From: an uncultured Nitrospirota bacterium
GTDB lineage: Bacteria; Nitrospinota; Nitrospinia; CAJXCL01
Assembly: GCA_913051775.1 (NCBI GenBank)
Contig: CAJXCL010000015.1
Location: 1 to 38,888 of the forward strand
DNA length: 38,888 nucleotides
Direction: 5' to 3'
Every line of letters starts with the position of its first letter. Position 1 is the stretch's first letter. Both the position numbers and the translations under genes were made by a program. Positions 34,393 through 36,673 of this stretch are shown piece by piece. Below the pieces are notes generated by a model. That model was not told the origin of the DNA, did no database searches, and saw nothing but the letters and a program-made list of their open reading frames with translations.

Positions 34393-35313
34393 TTACGAAA
34401 CAGACAGCATTTTTTCGAGAGCAGAATTAGCCCTGACTTGAATCTTCTTTGGCACAGTAATTTGGTGTTTTTCATCCTCCAAAGCTTTCAATACATCTTC
34501 CAAAGTTGTTACTTTCATGTTCGGGCAGATCTGCTCTTTTGATGGGAAATAAAACTCCTTTTCCGGGTTCCCTTTTCTTAGCCTGTACCCGATTCCAATC
34601 TCCGTACCTACAATAATTTCATTGTGAGAGCATTCCTGGGCAAATTTAATCATCCCGGAAGTACTGGCAATATGATGGGCAAGATTCAATACTTCTGGAG
34701 TGCATTCGGGGTGCGCCATAAAAACTGCCTTTGGATGTTCTTTCATCGTTTCCCTTACATTCTCTTCTTTTATAAAGTTATGGTGGGTGGGACAAAAACC
34801 TTTCCAGGGGATAACTGTCTTTTGGGTAAAACGTTGAGCATATTTCGCGAGATTCATGTCCGGAATCATCAATACTTGGTTTTTGCCATTTAGCGACCCT
34901 ACTACTTTAACGACATTAGATGATGTGCAACATATATCGCTTTCCGCTTTGACGTCAGCGGTTGAGTTTACATAACACACGACAATTGCATCGGGATAGG
35001 TTTTTTTTACCTCCCTTAACTTTTGAACGGTTACCATATCCGCCATGGGACATCCTGCTTCAAGATTCGGAAGTAAAACTTTTTTGTCAGGAGATAATAT
35101 TGCCGCGCTTTCCGCCATAAAATGAACACCGCAAAAAACAATAATCTCTGCCTTTGTTTCAGCCGCCGCCTGGCTCAAGCCTAAAGAATCACCGGCAATA
35201 TCAGCAATCTCCTGAATCTCATCCCTCTGGTAGTTATGCGCCAACAACACCGCTTTCTTTTCTTTCAAGAGTGAGCGGATATCCTTTTTCAGTTTGCTAT
35301 CATTATCTGTCAT
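34393..35313 (-). CDS. nadA: Quinolinate synthase A
   Basis: NadA condenses iminoaspartate with dihydroxyacetone phosphate to quinolinate in de novo NAD synthesis, using a 4Fe-4S cluster. The 306-residue protein is the compact form with Cys88 (EAGCPMA), Cys174 (GFCPTHH) and Cys263 (QICPNMK), spaced like the three cluster ligands of well-studied homologues; HNYQRDEIQEIADIAGDSL and HPEC are further hallmarks. nadB and nadC are not in the window. The promoter is predicted to start transcription at the ATG itself, overlapping the divergent ffh promoter. Confidence 0.96.
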   Translation of the reverse strand: MTDNDSKLKKDIRSLLKEKKAVLLAHNYQRDEIQEIADIAGDSLGLSQAAAETKAEIIVFCGVHFMAESAAILSPDKKVLLPNLEAGCPMADMVTVQKLREVKKTYPDAIVVCYVNSTADVKAESDICCTSSNVVKVVGSLNGKNQVLMIPDMNLAKYAQRFTQKTVIPWKGFCPTHHNFIKEENVRETMKEHPKAVFMAHPECTPEVLNLAHHIASTSGMIKFAQECSHNEIIVGTEIGIGYRLRKGNPEKEFYFPSKEQICPNMKVTTLEDVLKALEDEKHQITVPKKIQVRANSALEKMLSVS

Positions 35314-35356
35314 GTTGACATTATATTACGAAATCTGATATAAGTGAAAGTTTATT
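35314..35356. promoter_or_regulatory. Overlapping divergent promoters of nadA and ffh
   Basis: Plus strand: TTGACA (35315-35320), an 18-bp spacer and TATAAG (35339-35344), with transcription expected near 35351 and the ffh ATG at 35357. Minus strand: TTCACT, 17-bp spacer and a perfect TATAAT (35325-35320), with transcription expected at about 35313, the A of the nadA ATG. The ffh -35 and nadA -10 share a base, so the polymerases should compete. No ribosome site precedes either gene, in keeping with leaderless or very short leaders. Confidence 0.65.
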
Positions 35357-36673
35357 ATGTTTAAAAATCTATCTGATCGGTTAGAACCGATTCTAAAAAA
35401 ATTAAAAGGGCGGGGCAAGCTAAACGAAGAAAATATCAGGGAATCCCTTCGTGAAATCAGGATAGCTTTACTGGAAGCCGACGTAAATTTTAAGATCGTT
35501 AAAGGTTTTATTGCGCGCATCGCTGACAAAGCTGTTGGATCCGAGGTAATGGAAAGTTTAACGCCCGGACATCAGGTTGTGAAAATTGTCCATGAGGAGC
35601 TTATTCATTTATTGGGATCCGAATCATCACAGATTACTTTTTCCAGACAACCACCAACTATTATTTTAATGGTTGGTCTGCAGGGATCCGGTAAAACAAC
35701 CTCTGCCGCTAAATTAGCTAAAAAACTTAAGGATGAAGGAGAAAAACCGTTTTTGGTTCCTGCTGATGTTTATCGACCAGCTGCGATAGAACAGCTAAAT
35801 ATTTTAGGTGAAAAGCTTGATGCTGAGGTATTTGCCACTAATGAACAAAAAGATCCTGTTAAAATTTGCAGGAATGCCTGTGCAGAAGCCATAGAAAAGG
35901 GTTTAAACCCTATTATCATCGACACTGCAGGGAGGCTTCATGTTGATGAGAAGTTAATGAAGGAGTTAAAAAATATTAAAGTGGAGATTGAACCTCATGA
36001 GATTTTATTGGTAGCCGACGCCATGACAGGGCAGGAAGCGGTGAATATAGCCCAATCTTTCGACAACAGCCTGGGGATCGACGGGATTATATTAACAAAG
36101 ATGGATGGAGACGCGCGGGGCGGGGCGGCTTTGTCCATAAGAGAAATTACGGGAAAACCAATAAAATTTATTGGTGTTGGAGAAAAATTAGAAGCCCTGG
36201 AAGCTTTTCATCCTGATAGGCTGGCATCAAGGATTTTAGGAATGGGAGATGTCCTATCATTAATTGAAAAAGCAAAATCTACTGTCTCTAATGATTCCGC
36301 AGAGGATCTCTATAAAAAAATTAAAAAAGATACTTTTTCTCTTGAGGATTTTAAAAACCAGTTAGCGCAAATCAAAAAAATGGGTCCGCTGGATAAGCTA
36401 ATGGGAATGTTGCCTGGGATGAAGGGTTTAAAAAACATTAAAATTGATGATAAAGCCATTGTCAGGACGGAAGCAATCATTAATTCTATGACGTCTAAAG
36501 AAAGATTAAAACATCAAATTATTAATGGAAACCGAAAAAAAAGGATTGCAAAAGGAAGTGGAACTCATGTTTCCGACGTTAACAGGCTTCTAAAACAGTT
36601 TGTACAATCTAAAAAAATGATGAATAAATTTTCTAAAATGAACTTGAAAAACGGTTTAGGAATGCAAAGATGA
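35357..36673 (+). CDS. ffh: Signal recognition particle protein Ffh (SRP54)
   Basis: The GTPase and signal-binding subunit of the SRP, which with 4.5S RNA delivers membrane-protein ribosomes to FtsY. The 438-residue protein has the N domain (MFKNLSDRLEPILKKL), G1 GLQGSGKTT, RPAAIEQL, DTAGR, TKMDGDARGG and the methionine-rich M domain with the RNA-binding GSGTHVSDVNRLLKQF and a short MMNKFSKM tail. It is the first gene of the ffh-rpsP-khpA-rimM-trmD run on the plus strand. No 4.5S RNA gene is seen in the window. Confidence 0.98.
   Translation: MFKNLSDRLEPILKKLKGRGKLNEENIRESLREIRIALLEADVNFKIVKGFIARIADKAVGSEVMESLTPGHQVVKIVHEELIHLLGSESSQITFSRQPPTIILMVGLQGSGKTTSAAKLAKKLKDEGEKPFLVPADVYRPAAIEQLNILGEKLDAEVFATNEQKDPVKICRNACAEAIEKGLNPIIIDTAGRLHVDEKLMKELKNIKVEIEPHEILLVADAMTGQEAVNIAQSFDNSLGIDGIILTKMDGDARGGAALSIREITGKPIKFIGVGEKLEALEAFHPDRLASRILGMGDVLSLIEKAKSTVSNDSAEDLYKKIKKDTFSLEDFKNQLAQIKKMGPLDKLMGMLPGMKGLKNIKIDDKAIVRTEAIINSMTSKERLKHQIINGNRKKRIAKGSGTHVSDVNRLLKQFVQSKKMMNKFSKMNLKNGLGMQR

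Follow-up and report, generated by a model that had tools for sequence, protein, structure and literature searches.

Zheng et al. (2011, PMC3160421) described leaderless genes with a TA-like signal some 10 bp ahead of the start codon; their survey of 953 genomes lists no Nitrospinota. Overlapping divergent promoters are known from ilvY-ilvC and fepA-fes of Escherichia coli (PMC4469952). At the bidirectional promoters of E. coli, activating one direction tends to repress transcription in the other, and polymerase exclusion is present but slight when basal activity is low (PMC12825309). The gap between nadA and ffh described here probably combines two known arrangements, leaderless genes and overlapping divergent promoters. 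A literature search for a divergent nadA/ffh promoter returned no paper.

Within the window, i.e. the whole stretch of 38,888 nucleotides that was analysed, nadA (quinolinate synthase, 306 aa; 34393–35313, minus strand; NCBIfam TIGR00550 above cut-off) and ffh (signal recognition particle protein, 438 aa; 35357–36673, plus strand; NCBIfam TIGR00959 above cut-off) lie head to head, and their ATG codons, at 35313 on the minus and 35357 on the plus strand, flank exactly 43 bp (35314–35356). ffh is the first gene of a run that reads ffh-rpsP-like-...-rimM-trmD-like, with the downstream names read from the sequence. The start codons of both genes seem right: at the site nadA offers one in-frame start only, which agrees with the ATG of three homologues (L005–L007), and ffh begins with the usual MF- and is preceded, 4 codons upstream, by an in-frame stop. 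Divergent gaps this short are rare, not unique, in this genome, the shortest among 109 sampled pairs being 41, 43, 50, 64 and 74 bp. In the 41-bp gap (L134), one side has an SD-like AAGGAAA, the opposite side a TATAAT-rich stretch.

On the plus strand, the sequence of the gap contains a −35 element for ffh, TTGACA (6/6; 35315–35320), followed after a spacer of 18 by an extended −10, TGA-TATAAG (35336–35344; also found by the weight matrix described below), in which TG occupies 35336–35337 and the hexamer TATAAG (5/6, with G as its sixth base) 35339–35344. On the minus strand, the scan placed a −35 for nadA, TTCACT (4/6; 35343–35348), at a spacer of 17 from a −10, TATAAT (6/6; 35320–35325), that is also evident in the sequence. 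The −10 elements end 12 nt (ffh; −18 to −13) and 6 nt (nadA; −12 to −7) ahead of the respective ATG. The two promoters thus lie antiparallel on ∼34 bp (35315–35344 on the plus strand, 35348–35320 on the minus strand), and each −10 overlaps the opposite −35, by 1 bp at 35320 and by 2 bp at 35343–35344. We verified the coordinates of the gap, the TTGACA and the TATAAT overlap at 35320 that the first-pass annotation had given for interlocking promoters. Overall, the gap is a region of overlapping divergent promoters, sigma-70-type, which point in opposite directions on common DNA. Because each −10 overlaps the opposite −35, we infer that one RNA polymerase at a time would fit the gap, where it would initiate either nadA or ffh.

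The gap is 77% A+T, and its motifs could therefore be chance products of AT-rich DNA, the real promoters lying inside the opposite genes with leaders of at least 40 nt. Further points in favor of this alternative are a 9/12 site for nadA inside ffh (35418–35390) and the position of the best ffh promoter in most other sampled families of the phylum, 42–68 nt upstream. A simple promoter scan of 1.1 kb gave 3 sites against 2.8 expected, no excess over chance, and caught the nadA promoter only; the ffh promoter was missed because the scanner requires T at the sixth −10 position, where ffh has G. We also used a weight matrix that scores the −35, spacer, TG and −10 and is a general, E. coli-like one. 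By this matrix, the gap promoters are the top sites for their genes, with scores of 9.5 (nadA) and 9.4 (ffh; runner-up 6.1 at −59). When the gap was shuffled 5000 times by dinucleotides, 2% of the shuffles reached 9/12 on both strands and none reached the joint scores of 11/12 and 10/12 on opposite strands (the test was post hoc). As the promoter position is, in addition, conserved in a sister family (see below), we consider promoters inside the opposite genes unlikely.

TTATAT (35321–35326) and ATATAA (35338–35343) form an inverted repeat, so that the two −10 elements are mirror images of each other. The gap could accordingly be read as one bidirectional promoter, pseudo-symmetrical and with its −10 shared, of the type found in E. 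coli (PMC12825309), which it resembles in this pseudo-symmetry and in the mutual polymerase exclusion that would be expected. However, the −10 elements at 35320–35325 and 35339–35344 have no bases in common, and the predicted starts are ∼38 bp apart, compared with 18, 10 or 23 bp in that class. On spacing and on the separate −10 elements we rejected a shared-element promoter, which we regard as highly improbable.

Counting to the seventh nucleotide past each −10 puts the predicted transcription start of nadA at 35313 (minus strand), the A of its ATG, and that of ffh at 35351 (plus strand), 6 nt ahead of its ATG, in agreement with the first-pass annotation. With the purines 35350 and 35354 as starts, the ffh leader would be 7 or 3 nt, and we take 35350–35354 as the predicted start zone, with a leader of 3–7 nt. 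The nadA mRNA would then be leaderless; its −10 sits some 10 bp ahead of the ATG, and the gene has no Shine-Dalgarno sequence (anti-SD duplex energy +0.6). ffh, with its predicted 3–7-nt leader, is not strictly leaderless, because its −10 lies 4–5 nt further from the ATG than in sister-family genomes (−18 to −13 versus −12/−13), and its −10 ends in G, where T is usually conserved. The leaderless reading, which conservation strengthens, has firmer support here for nadA than it has for ffh. The proposal that the genes form a leaderless pair, to which the genome-wide and sister-family data below lend support, would hold for ffh only in the looser sense of near-leaderless.

That neither gene has a ribosome site was confirmed: pairing with the anti-SD has a duplex energy of +0.6 for nadA and −2.4 for ffh, against a genome median of −2.4, i.e. 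ffh equals the median and nadA pairs more weakly. The anti-SD was borrowed from a class-mate (G018), since 16S rRNA is absent from this assembly; the 16S rRNA of that genome ends in the canonical GGATCACCTCCTTT, and Nitrospinia is tabulated among the classes with a canonical anti-SD (PMC10783764). To place these values, we called 875 genes by codon usage in a 1.17-Mb sample of the same genome, 529–567 of them with an unambiguous start. An AGGA, GGAG or GAGG tetramer was found ahead of 23–30% of genes, compared with 8–15% in an upstream control window, and good anti-SD pairing by duplex energy in 28% of genes, compared with 12% in the control. A missing ribosome site is ordinary in this genome, where ∼75% of genes have none, and the earlier view that the locus is unusual for this reason is not supported.

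Promoter position was then scored genome-wide. Among 346 unambiguous first genes in the 1.17-Mb sample, 13 had a strong promoter with a −10 starting at −15 to −11, where shuffles gave an expectation of 1.6–1.8 and a maximum of 6; the four neighboring 5-nt bins held 1–3 strong promoters each, near expectation. Within operons, 1 of 130 genes had a strong promoter at −15 to −11. A Shine-Dalgarno sequence preceded none of the 13 genes at the leaderless position, compared with 8 of the 38 genes with more distant strong promoters. TATAAT-like hexamers alone gave no clear positional peak; for the excess to emerge, −35 and TG had to be included in the score. Such an excess marks a minor leaderless class, which at the cut-off applied accounts for ∼4% of first genes. 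A sister-family genome (G008) had an excess of its own at the leaderless position, 5 of 105 against 0.4 expected, with one other bin (−30 to −26) also above expectation; in G018 (family f5), the count was 2 of 97 against 0.7 expected, which is not significant.

The set at the leaderless position includes a gene that starts with MNKKAIGLLSGGLDS and has an apparent G008 counterpart, MNKKAIVLSSGGIDS, that is likewise leaderless-like, and a LexA-like repressor gene. The latter (L128; contig C18 of this genome, G000; minus strand, from about 18775 downward) has its −10, TAAAAT, at −12 from its GTG, and GAACGTTTGTTC, which resembles a Gram-positive-type SOS box, lies between this −10 and a TTGACA −35. 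The gene is apparently a leaderless, self-controlled lexA.

To compare the spacing in relatives, we used a set of 77 genomes of the phylum (apparently Nitrospinota), which includes this genome and none other from its own family; the top ffh match beyond this genome is a Nitrospinae MAG. Upstream regions of the sister family, f6, were compared as ATG-anchored stacks. In this family, ffh is preceded by TTGACA-17-(TGn)TTAAAT-7/8-ATG in four genomes of three genera (G008, G011, G017 and G019), with the TGn ahead of the −10 as in the present ffh promoter, and nadA by TTGTYA-17-(TGA)GATAAT-7-ATG in three genomes of two genera (G008, G017 and G019). GATAAT at −13 to −8 is kept ahead of nadA in L004, L005 and L007, which have the same −10/start arrangement as nadA here. 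The f6 sample is small, five genomes with ffh, and one of the five ffh loci (L180) has a weak promoter (score 5.1). The two genes are not neighbors in f6: nadA faces rplM over 57–58 bp, and ffh faces bioB over 74–75 bp in L181, L182 and L189. In these three ffh-bioB gaps, the ffh −35 abuts a TTGACT facing bioB, forming the palindrome GTCAA-N3-TTGAC.

Thus, the near-leaderless promoter is kept at both genes in the sister family. Because it stays 7–8 nt before the ATG with the genes apart, the comparison suggests that near-leaderless initiation travels with each gene and not with the nadA-ffh neighborhood. Elsewhere in the set, a Shine-Dalgarno sequence is mostly present ahead of ffh in families f2 and f4. 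Whether leaderless or near-leaderless initiation of nadA and ffh in a lineage of Nitrospinota is a heritable promoter trait that has persisted while divergent partners were exchanged (rplM and bioB in the sister family, nadA and ffh facing each other here), with ffh leadered in other families, seems to us evenly poised. In f5, a conserved block like GATAGTCCCCTTAAATTTAAAGGGTTTAGCCC is found ∼10–40 nt upstream of ffh (e.g. L187, L188, L191, L242, L253 and L258), downstream of a conserved TTATATACT promoter; its folding is weak and inconsistent, and a 400-kb sample of G018 held no other copy.

The head-to-head arrangement itself was seen in this genome only. nadA adjoined ffh in none of the 49 other phylum genomes with nadA and a full-strength ffh match, all outside its family, and in none of 80 ffh loci from other genomes, which include other phyla and classes and were viewed mostly with 3-kb flanks, some shortened by contig ends. 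These results bear on the suggestion of the first-pass annotation that polymerase competition ties NAD synthesis to SRP level, which in its strongest form would make the overlapping promoters a selected switch. The −35 and −10 elements do physically overlap on both sides, and opposing polymerases exclude each other at E. coli bidirectional promoters (PMC12825309). However, the same study reports minimal interference when basal activity is low (PMC12825309), the gap yielded no regulator site and each gene has a different divergent partner in the sister family. The regulatory NAD-SRP link is unsupported because the pairing is not conserved, and a selected switch is, in our judgment, very unlikely; the coupling would matter only with conserved pairing.

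We consider it probable that the gap is a compact region of divergent promoters in which each gene has its near-leaderless start by descent, the pairing is a lineage-specific rearrangement and competition is a by-product. According to this proposal, the nadA mRNA would begin at its AUG and the ffh mRNA 3–7 nt ahead of its AUG, and leaderless-type initiation, in which a 5′-terminal AUG is recognized together with initiator tRNA and Shine-Dalgarno pairing plays no part, would serve both messages. The leaderless placement would be a property of each gene's own promoter, older than the present neighborhood, and a lineage-specific rearrangement would have put nadA and ffh head to head, so close that their promoters interlock. 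Promoter competition would then be a by-product of the short gap rather than a demonstrated control circuit. If this is correct, leaderless initiation occurs in a phylum that the large survey (PMC3160421) does not include, in genes under strong functional constraint. It would also offer a natural comparison, the same gene having no leader in one family, a leader in another and an SD-led message in a third, and a warning to gene callers that in these genomes the absence of a ribosome site is the normal state.

Compared with the described systems, the predicted leaderless genes here resemble the class of Zheng et al. (PMC3160421) in their −10-like box at about −12, in the lack of a Shine-Dalgarno sequence, in forming a minority of genes and in the extended TG before the box, which is found there in low-GC genomes. 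Unlike in that survey, the class is small, ∼4% of first genes, and includes nadA in two families. With ilvY-ilvC and fepA-fes (PMC4469952), the nadA-ffh gap shares a back-to-back promoter pair in a short gap, where competition is possible. Those pairs are under known regulators or metabolically linked, whereas nadA-ffh is neither, and the nadA and ffh messages, unlike theirs, are predicted to be leaderless or nearly so.
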